Shown piece after piece: positions 1,790 through 24,065 of a stretch of 43,013 nucleotides of DNA; the stretch's first letter is position 1, and the number at the start of each line of letters is the position of its first letter. Location: positions 1 through 43,013 of IMG/VR virus record IMGVR_UViG_3300034374_000896, one strand, 5' to 3'. The stretch is from a virus. The translations under genes and the position numbers were made by a program. Under the pieces are notes generated by a model. The model searched no databases. It had not been told where the DNA came from and saw only the letters and a program-made list of their open reading frames with translations.

Positions 1790-2263
1790 CTATCCCATCA
1801 TCAATTCAAAATGTGGGGCATCTATGAAGGGACGACGACCTTGTGATCTACGTAGGTCAATGTAAGCGTTCATTGCATCCTCAGCTGTATCATCGTAGTA
1901 ACGAATGTCACCCTCTGACCAAGCTGCACCCCATTTGATAGGCACCTCTAGTTCTTCTGCTGCTTGAGCCATAGCGTCACAGATATTATCGTAAACATTG
2001 AGTTCCCAACTTACATTAGAACCAAAGTACGCTACAAGGTCTACAGCGTGGCTATAACCGTCACCCTGGATCAAGTGCTTACTTTTCATAGTCTGGCTAC
2101 GGCCTGACTCGTATAACTCTTTCTGTTCAGCTAAAGTTCTGACTCCATACGTCACACCGAAGTCTACATCAGTAAGCTCAATAGCTCGTTTAACTACAGC
2201 TACCATATCTGGATGTACACCATCTAGTTTATCTAACGAGCGCTGGGAAAGTCTAAATGCCAT
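1790..2263 (-). CDS. Endolysin, M15 family peptidase
   Basis: A 157-aa zinc peptidase of the M15 family (VanY / L-alanyl-D-glutamate peptidase type) that cuts peptidoglycan peptides at lysis. Zinc ligands are visible: His63 in SKHL, Asp75 in HAVDLVAY and His151 in DAPHFEL; the YGVRTLAEQ motif (39-47) is also typical. A few residues (IQGDGYS) are inserted between the first His and HAVD compared with the common SRHLTGHAVD arrangement. There is no signal peptide, so export would need a holin; the small membrane proteins upstream are candidates. Second gene of the lysis trio lipoprotein-endolysin-spanin. Confidence 0.85.
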   Translation of the reverse strand: MAFRLSQRSLDKLDGVHPDMVAVVKRAIELTDVDFGVTYGVRTLAEQKELYESGRSQTMKSKHLIQGDGYSHAVDLVAYFGSNVSWELNVYDNICDAMAQAAEELEVPIKWGAAWSEGDIRYYDDTAEDAMNAYIDLRRSQGRRPFIDAPHFELMMG

Positions 2264-4148: not shown

Positions 4149-4261
4149 AGCCAGTGATACACCTCGTGAGCTACAGCCAGAGCTACAATACAAAGGATGG
4201 CTGTCTTAGGGTTATTCTTAACACAAGTCCAATATTGTTTTACTTTATCAAGTATCTGCAT
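4142..4261 (-). CDS. Single-pass membrane micro-protein (39 aa)
   Basis: ATG at 4261, stop TAG at 4142-4144. The product is MQILDKVKQYWTCVKNNPKT, then AILCIVALAVAHEVYHWLW: a basic N-terminal half and one hydrophobic helix. It overlaps the upstream gene's end by 14 bp and the EF-hand gene's start by 7 bp (CTATGGTAG), so it fits exactly between them. Size, topology and position just before the lysis genes make it a candidate holin or antiholin (inference). Confidence 0.5.
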   Translation of the reverse strand: MQILDKVKQYWTCVKNNPKTAILCIVALAVAHEVYHWLW

Positions 4262-4508
4262 AGTGTCTCTTTCTATCTGGGTCTAACACTTCATTACGAT
4301 GTAAGTGACCCTCTAAGTACATAGCTCTCTCTACGTGATCCAATGTGTACCACACACCTGTGTCTTGATATATAGCTTGACGTACATAGAAAACGTCTGA
4401 CTTGGGTATGTGTACTTTCTGTAAGCTACGAGTATCATTAGAGGCTAATGCATCGTAAAACTCTTCGATTACACGATCTGTTGCATATAGTTTTACGTCT
4501 TTTTTCAT
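4248..4508 (-). CDS. Hypothetical protein (86 aa), first gene of the minus-strand operon
   Basis: I prefer the ATG at 4508 (MKKDVKLYATDRVIEEFYDA). The longer frame would start with TTG at 4517, which also forms part of a TTGACA box. The product is a soluble, charged protein without recognised domain (helical, with VRQAIYQDTG and VERAMYLEGH segments). No good ribosome-binding site is visible. It is the first minus-strand gene after the control region. Confidence 0.6.
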   Translation of the reverse strand: MKKDVKLYATDRVIEEFYDALASNDTRSLQKVHIPKSDVFYVRQAIYQDTGVWYTLDHVERAMYLEGHLHRNEVLDPDRKRHYADT

Positions 4509-4554
4509 AGTTGTCAAGCATTAATTACTACAAATATAGGAATACTTCCCCTAT

Positions 4555-4807
4555 AGTATAACTATAAGAGTTTAAACTTCCATAGATTGCTTAGGGAATG
4601 TTAGGTTAGTTAAACATTATGTAGAGTTTAACTATTGAGTGAGGAGGAGACTAAGAGGGAGTTTAACTCTACCCTAGTTTAACTAACCTTAAGTATAACT
4701 ATATCATAGTTTAATATTAGTGTCAAGCTATTTCTTTAGTTAAACTACAGTAGTTATACTATATATTAGTTTAAACTCTTCCTATGTCCAAACTTTATAG
4801 TTTAACT
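4555..4807. repeat. Iteron array, 9-bp unit AGTTTAACT and variants, 12 copies
   Basis: Copies of AGT(T/A)(T/A)AACT or its complement begin at 4555, 4569, 4609, 4625, 4660, 4676, 4692, 4708 (degenerate), 4738, 4752, 4768 and 4799. Two are extended palindromes (AGTTTAAACT at 4569 and 4768). Start-to-start distances are mostly 14-16 bp or about twice that (30-32), with two exceptions (35 and 40), so sites alternate on opposite faces of the helix. This is the pattern of cooperative protein binding at an iteron-type origin or multi-operator. Two units overlap promoter elements on the minus strand. Confidence 0.75.
4698..4726 (-). promoter_or_regulatory. Sigma70-type promoter for the minus-strand operon
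   Basis: On the minus strand, TTGACA (4726-4721) is followed after 17 bp by TATAGT (4703-4698), five of six matches to the -10 consensus. The -10 box is part of the iteron at 4692-4703, so a protein bound to the iterons would occlude it. It points toward the gene starting at 4508. Confidence 0.6.
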
Positions 4808-4826
4808 AAGCCCCCTTACCCCCGTA

Positions 4827-4855
4827 GTTATGCATAAAATGTAGGTACTTGTCAA
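4827..4855 (-). promoter_or_regulatory. Second, weaker minus-strand promoter
   Basis: TTGACA at 4855-4850 with a 17-bp spacer to CATAAC (4832-4827), four of six matches. It shares the CTTGACA word with the boxes at 4721 and 4512. Transcription would read through the whole iteron array. Confidence 0.4.
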
Positions 4856-4944
4856 GTGATTCTTTGTAGCTGTAGCATAAAAGTGATAATTACGTAGCGT
4901 CACTGTAATAGATTGAAACATTCTGTGATATACTTACTAGAAAT

Positions 4945-4984
4945 ACAAGGGAATGTGTGGAATTATATAGGAAAACAAGGGAAT
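4945..4984 (+). repeat. Two direct copies of ACAAGGGAAT, 30 bp apart
   Basis: Identical 10-mers at 4945-4954 and 4975-4984 lie just upstream of the extended -10 box at 4993-5001. Placement at about -20 and -50 relative to that box fits an activator or repressor site. No regulator is identified. Confidence 0.45.
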
Positions 4985-4992
4985 AGTGTAAC

Positions 4993-5001
4993 TGTTATAA
5001 T
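4993..5001 (+). promoter_or_regulatory. Extended -10 promoter for the early plus-strand operon
   Basis: TGTTATAAT is a perfect extended -10 element (TG, one base, TATAAT). No good -35 box lies 17 bp upstream; the ACAAGGGAAT repeats occupy that region instead, as expected for a regulated extended -10 promoter. It would give a leader of about 570 nt before the first early gene. Confidence 0.5.
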
Positions 5002-5381
5002 GTAACACCCTTTTGAAAAACCACTTCTGTTGCAGAGTACATATATACGTAACGGTATAGGGGGGTGTGGCCCCTGCCCGCCCGTGTTTAACGTGTGTGT
5101 TGCGCGTCCGAGGCGCGAGATGGGGTGCTAAGTTGTTGAAAATAAAGGGTTTTTATAGTGATATGACTTCACAGATTCGCTAAAATAGGCTGATTCACGG
5201 GCGCTCACGCATCACGCGCACAGCTCAGCGTTTTATGCACATAACACCCCTATCCCCCCGAACGCATTGCACACAGCACACCCCCCAGCGTTTGCGCATC
5301 ATACGCATCACGCTCTCGCATCACATCACGTCAGGCGCATCAGGCAGGCACATCACGTTGCGCTATCCGCATCACGCGAGG

Positions 5382-5434
5382 CAATGTTGCTGATTCGTTC
5401 CACCCTGCCGATGTCCAATGTTGCTGATTCGTTC
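5382..5434 (+). repeat. Perfect 19-bp direct repeat in the early leader
   Basis: CAATGTTGCTGATTCGTTC occurs at 5382-5400 and 5416-5434 (34-bp period). An inverted partial copy (AACGAATCAGC) lies at 5507-5517, and GCTGATTC also appears at 5189-5196. The inverted copy lets the leader fold back between 5420 and 5517 around the palindrome at 5449-5471. Confidence 0.65.
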
Positions 5435-5448
5435 TCATCAAAAAAAGC

Positions 5449-5471
5449 TATTTTCGGACCGTCCGAAGATA
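5449..5471. repeat. Palindromic element, copy a
   Basis: A 23-bp unit, TAT-NN-TCGGAC / C / GTCCGA-NN-ATA, with core TTCGGACCGTCCGAA at 5453-5467. The arms are 11 bp around one central base. It lies in the early leader about 106 bp before the ATG at 5578. Confidence 0.8.
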
Positions 5472-5577
5472 GATACCCTAAAGGGTAAAAAAAGTGTTTG
5501 ACATAAAACGAATCAGCTGCCAAGTTAAATGCATCGAAACGGCGACAATCGCCCAACAGCAAAAAAGGATTTTCGAT

Positions 5578-6114
5578 ATGACAAACGCAGTAGCAAAAAC
5601 ACACATCGACGCAAAAGTAACATACAAAGGCACATCATATACATTCACAGAGGCTTGTGATCACGTTTCACACCTATTTGATCAGCGTGATGACACCGCA
5701 GAATTGGTGCTCTTTCAGACCCGTGATATTGGCCTATGGTTGCTACAGCTTCGCTCAGTCTACAAGTCGAACAAGCAATTTGGTGCAGCTATCGCCGCCA
5801 CACCCCTAAGCAAGCGCTCAGCACAAGACCGCAACGATGCAATGTTCGTCGCTGAGAACTGGGACAAAGTAGCGAAGCTAAACAAAAAAGGTGAACTCAA
5901 TTCACTTGGTGCCTCAGCGGTCCGTAAGCGGGTCAAAAAAGCGCAGACTGCAGGTAACACATCCAAGGGCAAGCAAGCGGCTAAACCCACAGCGGAAGCG
6001 GATGCACCTATCACAGCGGACAGCCTTGCCAAGGCCACAATGAAATTGTTGAACGACAACGGCATCACACTTGCAGACTTCCGCAAGGCATTGACCAAGG
6101 CAAGCAAGGCATAA
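5578..6114 (+). CDS. First early gene, basic Ala/Lys-rich protein (178 aa)
   Basis: The ATG at 5578 has a well-spaced AAGGA 8 nt upstream; the frame also has a GTG at 5494 with no ribosome site, so I reject that. Residues 1-115 look globular (YTFTEACDHVSHLFDQRDDT, DIGLWLLQLRSVYKSNKQFG). A basic, Ala-rich linker (VRKRVKKAQTAGNTSKGKQ) and a short helical C-terminus (ITLADFRKALTKASK) follow. The codons are richer in GC than those of downstream genes. It could be a DNA-binding early regulator, but no known domain is evident. It is flanked by palindromic elements and followed by a hairpin terminator. Confidence 0.7.
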   Translation: MTNAVAKTHIDAKVTYKGTSYTFTEACDHVSHLFDQRDDTAELVLFQTRDIGLWLLQLRSVYKSNKQFGAAIAATPLSKRSAQDRNDAMFVAENWDKVAKLNKKGELNSLGASAVRKRVKKAQTAGNTSKGKQAAKPTAEADAPITADSLAKATMKLLNDNGITLADFRKALTKASKA

Positions 6115-10019: not shown

Positions 10020-10149
10020 TAGACGTACAGATGAATCGGTTTATGTAGAAATAAATGGATGGGTTATTTACTTAGAGGTGTCGGAAGCCACAGGAAATAA
10101 ACCTTATGTAAGTAAATGGAAGAAAGGGTGTGTCAATGAAACGAGTTGA
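10009..10149 (+). CDS. Small beta-rich protein (46 aa)
   Basis: ATG at 10009 within the end of the previous gene (TTGGAAGATGAG), stop at 10147-10149. Product MRVDRRTDESVYVEINGWVI, YLEVSEATGNKPYVSKWKKG, CVNETS. Overlaps the start of the next gene by 14 bp. Plausible from position and open frame only. Confidence 0.4.
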   Translation: MRVDRRTDESVYVEINGWVIYLEVSEATGNKPYVSKWKKGCVNETS

Positions 10150-10543
10150 AGTATACTTTAATCTGCACAAGAAGTTATTCAGTGTGCGTGACTGTAAGAC
10201 AGGGCGTGTGATTGACCACACTAATCACATTGCTATCGCTAACCCTCAGTTCGTAGTACGTAAGGCAGGACGTGAGCGTGTACTACGTGAGCGTAAGAAG
10301 AATGTCCACGCTTTTGTACGTGGTTACATCTTGCCAGAGGATGACGAGGCTTGTGCTCGTAACTACTTCCACGCTGTGTTTCACGGCAAGGAGGTGACGT
10401 ACAATCCATACAAGTACAGCAGCTTCGTAGTTAAGGACACTGGAGAGCCTATTGACAAAGCAACATTGGCTGTGCTAACTGGTGGTGGTGACCAGAAGGT
10501 TACGACAAAGGTGATGCTAGGAGCAGGCTATGAATACATATAA
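10136..10543 (+). CDS. Basic hypothetical protein (135 aa)
   Basis: ATG at 10136 preceded by an AAAGGG run; GTG at 10130 is an alternative. Product MKRVEVYFNLHKKLFSVRDC, with a basic central segment (VRKAGRERVLRERKKNVHAF) and a C-terminal Gly-rich turn (LTGGGDQKVTTK). The basic residues suggest nucleic-acid binding. No family recognised. Confidence 0.65.
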   Translation: MKRVEVYFNLHKKLFSVRDCKTGRVIDHTNHIAIANPQFVVRKAGRERVLRERKKNVHAFVRGYILPEDDEACARNYFHAVFHGKEVTYNPYKYSSFVVKDTGEPIDKATLAVLTGGGDQKVTTKVMLGAGYEYI

Positions 10544-10950: not shown

Positions 10951-11081
10951 TTACTAAACAACTAAACCTGAAGATACTTGATATGTGTGAGAAGATATTG
11001 CCTAACACTCGTATGGCTAACAACGCAGAACTCAAGAACTTACTATCTGAAATTCGTACAGCACTAGAGGAGACAAAATAA
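10947..11081 (+). CDS. Small helical protein (44 aa)
   Basis: ATG at 10947 (ATGA overlap), with GGAGGG 12 nt upstream. Product MITKQLNLKILDMCEKILPN, TRMANNAELKNLLSEIRTAL, EETK. Two helices likely. TAATG overlap with the following gene. Unknown. Confidence 0.5.
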   Translation: MITKQLNLKILDMCEKILPNTRMANNAELKNLLSEIRTALEETK

Positions 11082-11305
11082 TGTTTGTATGTTTCGCAAC
11101 TAAACCACTTAACGATGGCACTACTGGCTTCCGCTTTAACTTCGCAGGCATCAAGGGCTTGACCCGCAAGCGCCAATATATCAAACGCTTTGGCGTGACA
11201 CGTGGTGCTTGTATGACTGCATACCACATAGGTAAGCGCAGCGTGTACATCGAACAGTCTGGCAACAAGCGTGGCTCACGTAAGGTGCGTCACTTTGCAG
11301 GCTAA
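11081..11305 (+). CDS. Strongly basic small protein (74 aa)
   Basis: ATG at 11081 with GAGGAGACAAAATA upstream. Product MFVCFATKPLNDGTTGFRFN, then Lys/Arg-rich sequence (GLTRKRQYIKRFGVTRG, GKRSVYIEQSGNKRGSRKVR). Probably binds nucleic acid. Followed by a hairpin terminator. No family recognised. Confidence 0.6.
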   Translation: MFVCFATKPLNDGTTGFRFNFAGIKGLTRKRQYIKRFGVTRGACMTAYHIGKRSVYIEQSGNKRGSRKVRHFAG

Positions 11306-12265: not shown

Positions 12266-12343
12266 CGTTGTGTACTTCATTGATCTTGTGCTAGGGCAAG
12301 GACATTGTGTAGAGTGTTGGGCATACTGGAAAGTGAGGAAAAA

Positions 12344-13273
12344 ATGGTGAAACATAAACAGCTAGACTTGAAGGGTACTAACACCCTGCGTGATGCAATC
12401 ACTGCATACTTGAATAGCCCTGCCTTTGCTGAACTAAGTGGCCCAACACAGAAGCAGTACGAGACTAGACTGGTTGTAGTTTGTATGACTAAGGTGCAGA
12501 AAGGTAAGGTGCTAGGTAACATCAAGCTACGTGACATCAGCCTCAAGCACGTCACTTACGCTTACGACACGTGGCTTAACGAGAGAGGCCCACGTGCAGC
12601 TAACTACAACGCTTCGTGCCTGAGTATAGTACTTAACCTAGCTCGTCGGCACGAGGCTCTCTTGTACAATCCTGTGTCCCTGCTGAAGCGTAAGGTTGAC
12701 AAGCCTCGCAATGTGAAGTGGACGACTGATGATGTGCGCTTGTTCCTAGACACAGCGTACTCACACTGGTGGTCCCGTAGCATAGGTCTAATCGTACATA
12801 TGTCATACGAGTGGGGCCAACGTATAGGTGATATGCGTCTACTCAAGTGGGACGCTATCGACTTTGAACAGGAACGTGTAGACATCACACAGTCTAAGCG
12901 TGGCGCTGAGGTACACCTGCCTATTGATGATGGGCTAATGCCTATGCTCAAACAACAGAAGGAAGACTTCGGGTTCCAACCATACGTAGCACCACACGTC
13001 AAGCCTAAGAGTGGTAGCTACAATCCATACTCAGAGACTGACATACATCACTACGTCAATCGCGTTAAGGATGAGGCAGGACTAGACCCTGACTTACAGG
13101 CACGTGACTTACGCCGCACAGCTATCACTGAGATGGTGGAAGCAGGCGTTGATCTCGTAGGTATTATGCAGGTGAGTGGACACCAGAACCCTGCCAGTGT
13201 TAAGCCTTACCTAGTCAACACACTCAGCGGTGCATCAGCTGCACTAGCTAAACGCAAAGGAATTACTGAATGA
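12344..13273 (+). CDS. int: Tyrosine recombinase / integrase
   Basis: A 309-aa tyrosine recombinase. ATG at 12344 follows GTGAGGA. N-terminal core-binding domain ~15-115, then the catalytic domain: Arg160 (WGQRIGD), Lys185 (TQSKRG), the box-II segment ARDLRRTAITEM (253-264), His280 (SGHQ) and Tyr289 (VKPYL). The usual His of the HxxR motif is Arg254 here (RDLR with Arg257). It may integrate the phage into the host or resolve concatemers; some T7-like marine phages carry such genes. No tRNA-derived attachment site is visible next to it. It leads directly into the primase gene (ATGA overlap). Confidence 0.85.
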   Translation: MVKHKQLDLKGTNTLRDAITAYLNSPAFAELSGPTQKQYETRLVVVCMTKVQKGKVLGNIKLRDISLKHVTYAYDTWLNERGPRAANYNASCLSIVLNLARRHEALLYNPVSLLKRKVDKPRNVKWTTDDVRLFLDTAYSHWWSRSIGLIVHMSYEWGQRIGDMRLLKWDAIDFEQERVDITQSKRGAEVHLPIDDGLMPMLKQQKEDFGFQPYVAPHVKPKSGSYNPYSETDIHHYVNRVKDEAGLDPDLQARDLRRTAITEMVEAGVDLVGIMQVSGHQNPASVKPYLVNTLSGASAALAKRKGITE

Positions 13274-23855: not shown

Positions 23856-24065
23856 ATGGGATTTAGTATAGAAGAAGAAGCTAAGCGTTTCATTGAACAT
23901 AAGCGTGTGCAGTTCATCCAAGGGTTAGACGATGCAGCGTCTGACTTAATACATTACTTAGATGATAACCTACACAATGCTGATGAGAAGGATTACGCTA
24001 TTAAGGCTCTAAAAGAAGCTGCGTTATGGGCACGAAGTTGTGCTACAAAACACGGCATTAAGTAG
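23856..24065 (+). CDS. Candidate Acb2/Tad1-hairpin-like anti-defence protein (69 aa)
   Basis: ATG at 23856, GGAG upstream. The product is MGFSIEEEAKRFIEHKRVQF, then IQGLDDAASDLIHYLDDNLH and NADEKDYAIKALKEAALWAR, ending SCATKHGIK. Two long helices with a polar turn and the C-terminal pattern EK..A+..L+EA.+WA resemble the Acb2/Tad1 hairpin domain of phage proteins that sequester CBASS and Thoeris cyclic nucleotides; RFIEH recalls the RFxYH motif near their N-terminus. It is isolated from the replication operon, with its own strong promoter and terminator, as expected for an immediate-early anti-defence gene. The family call is by eye; an unrelated helical protein is possible. Confidence 0.5.
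   Translation: MGFSIEEEAKRFIEHKRVQFIQGLDDAASDLIHYLDDNLHNADEKDYAIKALKEAALWARSCATKHGIK

Follow-up and report, generated by a model that had tools for sequence, protein, structure and literature searches.

Introduction

In lambda-type phages, CI and Cro act at early promoters through operator regions of three 17-bp sites each. These operators are palindromic and overlap the promoters, and they differ among heteroimmune relatives. Iterons, known from plasmids and from the lambda origin, are short repeated sites in AT-rich DNA and usually lie about 20 bp apart.

In cluster A mycobacteriophages such as L5 and Bxb1, a single phage repressor has many short sites in each genome. From these operators and stoperators it can block elongation, and the motif diverges among relatives along with the repressor (PMC9283540, PMC6550527). 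Stoperators are asymmetric, 13–14 bp long, scattered over the genome in an orientation that follows transcription and bound by monomers without cooperativity. Apl of phage 186 and Cox of P2 instead occupy a row of short sites over promoters, where cooperative binding represses both promoters (PMC7498355). The sites of Apl are 6-bp direct repeats spaced one helical turn (10–11 bp) apart at the early promoters and attP.

The HMO-2011-type phages are described as a dominant marine group with a broad distribution (PMC9038755). In the papers examined we found no account of how they time gene expression, given that no RNA polymerase encoded by these phages is recognised. The words 'promoter' and 'repressor' do not occur in the papers on the group that were examined for them, among them PMC9038755 and PMC6918029, and literature searches listed no transcription study. 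Here we examine a repeat array in the divergent promoter region of one such phage.

Results

The window and its relatives

The stretch of DNA analysed, hereafter the window, is a 43-kb viral contig (43,013 nucleotides) with no end repeats. Its nucleotide relatives include the Roseobacter phages CRP-1, CRP-2, CRP-9, CRP-207 and CRP-603, and all of them are HMO-2011-type. It encodes a tyrosine integrase, a primase, a DnaB-like helicase, a family A DNA polymerase, a Cas4-like exonuclease and an endonuclease. These relatives and this gene set place the window among the HMO-2011-type phages, in the Roseobacter-phage branch (the group is described in PMC9038755 and PMC6918029). The original prediction had called it T7-like, a label that finds no support in these relatives or in a search for a phage RNA polymerase. 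The window proteins tested against PHROGs gave no match to such an enzyme, although the window is a fragment and the control of the PF00940 search was silent; an RNA polymerase annotation is also absent from the complete relatives. As inferred from coordinates, about 11 kb of the portal/terminase/capsid region of CRP-2 is absent between the two ends of the window, so positions 1 and 43013 are not natural genome ends. The genes relevant here are as follows.

1790 to 2263, minus strand: endolysin in the leftward lysis/virion operon (phrog_465, E 3.1e-55)
4248 to 4508, minus strand: first leftward gene, 86 aa, HMO-2011 gp71 family, in every HMO-2011-type genome examined
5578 to 6114, plus strand: first rightward gene, 178 aa, with homologues recovered in the window's close subclade alone
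12305 to 13273: tyrosine integrase, upstream of the replication module

A dense array of palindromic units

The divergent promoter region contains the following repeats.

4555 to 4807, unstranded: array of about twelve palindromic units of the AGTTWAACT type
4555–4563, 4608–4616, 4625–4633, 4660–4668, 4676–4684, 4692–4700, 4738–4746, 4752–4760 and 4799–4807: units with at most one mismatch to AGTTWAACT
4570–4578, 4708–4716 and 4769–4777: weaker units

The array exists far beyond chance. AGTTWAACT matched it 5, 9 and 14 times at zero, at most one and at most two mismatches, compared with shuffle means of 0.05, 0.56 and 3.6, and none of 2000 dinucleotide shuffles reached the observed counts. The runner-up 253-bp stretch of the window had 2 matches, and a weight matrix built from the units found only five sites in the unit score range elsewhere (37238, 32347, 27339, 2187 and 2226). 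The density of GTTWAAC in the promoter-to-gene interval was 59-fold that of the remaining window sequence. The predicted array is thus real, with nine units of at most one mismatch and about three weaker ones, and the two extended palindromes that had been noted are present as AGTTTAAACT at 4569–4578 and 4768–4777.

The start distances between successive units are 15, 38, 17, 35, 16, 16, 16, 30, 14, 17 and 30 bp. The proposed spacing of 14–16 bp or twice that describes most units (14–17 or about 30 bp) but not all (38 and 35 bp). The proposed helical phasing did not hold up, as the Rayleigh R at 10.5 bp was 0.09 (p about 0.9). The best period tried for the window was about 15.5 bp, with an R of 0.62 and a p of 0.009 before correction for several periods. 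Steps of about 15 bp amount to some 1.4–1.5 helical turns, and at 15–16 bp (about 1.5 turns) adjacent units therefore lie on different faces of the helix.

Similar spacing was seen in relatives. With 18 phages pooled, identical 5-mers recurred in excess at 12–16, 29–30, 43–46 and 58–62 bp, although these z-scores are not independent evidence because the phages share ancestry. Taken singly, 16 of 22 regions were enriched for multiples of about 14.8 bp (p ≤ 0.025). In the other six (L018, L053, L055, CRP-13, CRP-345 and HMO-2011) the spacing of about 15 bp was not significant when each was taken by itself.

Three conserved leftward promoter-like sites

Leftward sigma-70-type promoter-like sites occur at three places.

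4827 to 4855, minus strand: P1, -35 TTGACA (4855–4850), 17-bp spacer, -10 CATAAC (4832–4827)
4698 to 4726, minus strand: P2, TTGACA, 17-bp spacer, TATAGT, 11 of 12 matches
4490 to 4517, minus strand: P3, TTGACA, 16-bp spacer, TAAAAC, overlapping the start codon of the 86-aa gene

On its own, a generic promoter scan (6 sites, with 4.2 expected from shuffles) showed no excess, and the case for these putative promoters is made by their conservation in relatives. P1 is kept in nearly all relatives and matches the consensus at 12 of 12 positions in HMO-2011, CRP-2 and CRP-13. P2 is present in most Roseobacter-type relatives and absent from HMO-2011, CRP-1 and CRP-345. At P3, the spacing from TTGAC to a -10-like GTA(A/C/T)AACTA is invariant in all 28 phages compared, with AT in place of GT in L055 and CRP-207. 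The start codon falls between the P3 -35 and -10 in most of the 28; a P3 transcript would then begin within the gene, which suggests that the gene itself is translated from P1 or P2 transcripts. In CRP-9, CRP-13 and L104, P3 has the same spacing and precedes the coding sequence.

The array starts just beyond the P1 start site and stops about 40 bp before P3. Its first unit, 4799–4807, follows the P1 -10 at a distance of about 20 bp. The P2 -10 TATAGT (4698–4703) overlaps unit 4692–4700, and unit 4708–4716 lies in the P2 spacer. The array therefore covers the -10 box of one minus-strand promoter while a second, P1, reads into it, just as originally predicted. Most phages listed have a unit about 18–22 bp past the P1 -10, regardless of what the unit sequence is. 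This placement just past the -10 would be a repression-type position.

These positions bear on the possibility that the array is an iteron-type replication origin, in which a phage initiator would bind the units and the AT-rich DNA would melt. The repeats do lie in AT-rich DNA (72%) in a divergent region, and the cumulative GC skew has a minimum near the divergent region in CRP-1, CRP-2, CRP-9, CRP-207 and the window. No initiator was recognised, which leaves the sequence of its site unconstrained. However, the skew does not discriminate because its change coincides with the coding-strand switch, and in the CRP genomes the minimum is not at the array but close to where the divergent region ends on its rightward side. 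An origin would have no need for units that track the P1 start and the P2 -10. We regard an origin as unlikely.

The array could also be a set of binding sites for the small terminase subunit (TerS) at a pac or cos site. Repeated TerS sites occur in other phages, and the array lies on the genome's late side. Against this, terS lies several kb away in relatives, the units track promoters, and the break points of related contigs are spread out upstream of the 86-aa gene and do not point to a fixed end. Packaging is thus a very improbable role.

Several other features of the divergent region were noted. To the right of P1, at 5015–5085, nearly all relatives show by eye a conserved element that reads approximately GTATATACGTA-n-CGGTATA, then a run rich in C or G, then TGGCCC-n-GCC; it might serve as an early promoter, as an origin or as some other site. 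GC-richer repeats (GCATCAC, CACATCACG and TTGCTGATTCGTTC) lie at 5180–5440 on the rightward side. Also on this side, TTGTGATCACAA palindromes recur in CRP-1, CRP-13 and CRP-345, and CRP-9 and CRP-13 have a separate TTTAAC-N-TTAAAC array to the right of the GC-rich element. Upstream of P1, L031, L036, L043 and others carry a second small cluster of TGTAACA/GTGATCA about 10–11 bp apart. No Rfam element was found in 4200–5800, and a search for a tRNA 3'-end or attP motif found none.

Relatives keep the position and replace the unit

Relatives were gathered through the first leftward gene, which retrieved 52 loci from IMG/VR, nine records of eight phages and a few phage contigs binned in MAGs. Most of them keep P1 and P3 with a repeat cluster in the same interval, but the sequence of the unit differs. 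The unit words across lineages include GTTWAAC, GTAATAAC, GTAGACTAC, GTAGCTAC, GTGTTAC and TTTAARTG, and they were assigned as follows.

GTTWAAC: window subclade, L043, L037, L018, L020
GTAATAAC with some GTTWAAC: CRP-603, CRP-2, L017, L031, L036
AGACTAC: L034
GTAGCTAC: L055
GTGTTAC: CRP-207
AAGTATA: CRP-9, CRP-13
TTTAARTG: HMO-2011, CRP-1, L106
ATTAGATG: L105

A table of counts of unit words by phage is nearly diagonal. In the genomes with a background count (CRP-1, CRP-9, CRP-207, HMO-2011 and CRP-2), the main class word is 44–100-fold denser in the interval than in the rest of the genome; Poisson values for class words are descriptive only, since the words were chosen after the sequences had been inspected. 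An unbiased best-word shuffle test was significant for the window subclade, L034, CRP-207, CRP-603, L017, L018, L053 and CRP-9, and weak or negative for L016, L023, L030, L044, CRP-2, CRP-1, CRP-345 and HMO-2011.

The replacement can be followed at aligned sites. In the P1–P2 segment, L034 and the CRP-2 group both keep GGGGGTAAGGGGG and GGACATAGG between units, whereas the aligned unit positions read AGTTAAAC, GTAGTTAC, AGTTATTAC and AGTTATTAC in CRP-2 and AGATAGACTAC, GTAGTCTAC, AGTAGTCTAC and AGTAGTCTAT in L034. Within the window subclade, 83% of columns are invariant in units versus 69% in spacers (Fisher p = 0.017). One unit there takes three forms, AGTATAACT, the reverse complement of this (AGTTATACT) and AGTTTAACT, and in L009 a gain of about 28 bp consists of unit-like sequence. 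These comparisons show that the position of the array is kept while the unit sequence changes in concert between lineages. Both points on which the original prediction could have failed, enrichment over shuffles and conservation among relatives, thus came out in favour of the array, the latter for its position.

CRP-1, CRP-2, CRP-9 and CRP-13 were all isolated on Rhodobacteraceae FZCC0023, yet they have three unit classes, with one shared by CRP-9 and CRP-13. That phages from the same host strain differ in their units speaks against a host factor. Since the unit changes as a set by lineage, also at aligned sites and on the same host, the factor that reads it is more plausibly sequence-specific and probably phage-encoded. 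The units might also be suspected to serve a host regulator, for example CtrA (TTAA-N7-TTAA), or to be arm-type sites for the integrase, as they contain TTAAC half-sites and the phage has an integrase. The array nevertheless has no TTAA-N7-TTAA, and several unit classes lack TTAA altogether. Arm-type sites fit poorly with the distance of about 7.5 kb that separates array and int in the window, and with an array in CRP-9, which has no annotated integrase. Together with the host evidence, these observations make either kind of site extremely unlikely.

The rapid divergence of the unit raises the question of lysogeny. Operators of an immunity repressor would resemble this array and would serve mainly to maintain a prophage. 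Such divergence among relatives is typical of immunity systems, for example cluster A stoperators (PMC6550527). The window has the tyrosine integrase at 12305–13273, and CRP-3 of the same group integrates into tRNA-Met (PMC6918029). On the other hand, CRP-9 without an annotated integrase still has an array of its own class, the array is on lysis/virion promoters rather than on early rightward ones, and no CI-like gene was recognised. A main role in prophage maintenance thus seems rather unlikely to us.

Search for the binding protein

No candidate for an array-binding phage protein was recognised by Pfam, PHROGs or fold search, and the early genes mostly have no recognisable domains. The AF2 model of the 86-aa gp71-family protein has four helices (pLDDT 80), and the protein gave no sequence or fold match in the PDB. 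It was rejected as the determinant of specificity, as the window and L034, whose units differ, have the identical sequence TLDHVERAMYLEGHL in its conserved putative helix. The product of 5578–6114 is a possible regulator. As a universal one it was rejected, for it was recovered in the window subclade only and its AF2 model was too poor (pLDDT 47). A 74-aa basic protein (11081–11305) was also set aside because its matches among phage records are only CRP-4 and CRP-5, with no HMO-2011-type records.

Three other window genes gave matches of separate interest. The region 6804–7247 matches the S-adenosylmethionine lyase family weakly (Pfam E 2.9e-4, below cut-off) and may encode an anti-restriction protein. 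The region 10130–10543 encodes a homologue of the mycobacteriophage L5 gene 82 protein (Pfam E 9e-36), which is also present in HMO-2011 and CRP-1. The region 23856–24065 weakly resembles the Acb2/Tad1 hairpin domain (E 0.0025, below cut-off) and possibly encodes a counter-defence protein.

Discussion

We favour, with some but not strong confidence, the reading that the array is a multi-site cooperative operator for a sequence-specific and probably phage-encoded protein, which would repress P1 and P2 and block read-through. Dimers of this protein would bind the short palindromic units of GT...AC form about every 15 bp, probably cooperatively, such that occupancy may extend from just past the P1 start, over P2 and towards P3. 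The bound protein would stop initiation at both P1 and P2 as well as block read-through into the leftward lysis/terminase/virion operon, which ordinary host sigma-70-type promoters would serve. We infer binding by a phage protein, its cooperativity, and repression and its timing; repression in particular is proposed because units sit just downstream of the start site at P1 and on the -10 at P2. A weakness of this model is that P3 is outside the array, so full shut-off would need a roadblock or spreading. The original prediction had left the choice between an operator and an origin. A cooperative operator on host-type lysis/virion promoters is the better supported of these, given the conserved position and the concerted replacement of units, while an iteron origin has found no specific support.

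A more general proposal, which we put forward only tentatively, is that HMO-2011-type marine phages, lytic and temperate, share an undescribed late-gene switch. It would consist of a protein filament at about 15 bp per unit on tandem host-type late promoters, with protein and sites changing together so fast that phages of one host differ. We found no description of the array in the open-access papers examined. A promoter-linked array with units rewritten as a set among relatives shows where to look for such a switch, and its reading as an operator predicts that phages of one host do not cross-regulate. The several natural site classes also offer a handle for finding the binding protein by correlation or pull-down.

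The array has the clustered sites overlapping promoters, beyond chance, that characterize an operator array. Like lambda operators, its palindromic sites overlap promoters and differ among relatives, but it has about twelve 9-mers and no CI/Cro-like gene was recognised. Like iteron origins, it has short repeats in AT-rich DNA; unlike theirs, its units are placed relative to promoters. In contrast to the asymmetric and scattered cluster A stoperators, its units are near-palindromic and form one dense cluster at a spacing of about 15 bp. It differs from the Apl and Cox sites in this spacing, in having no 10.5-bp phase, in its near-palindromic units and in its location on lysis/virion promoters. 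By analogy, the array appears to resemble cluster A stoperators most in its apparent co-divergence and Apl/Cox in forming what may be a cooperative row over promoters, while its site geometry matches that of neither.
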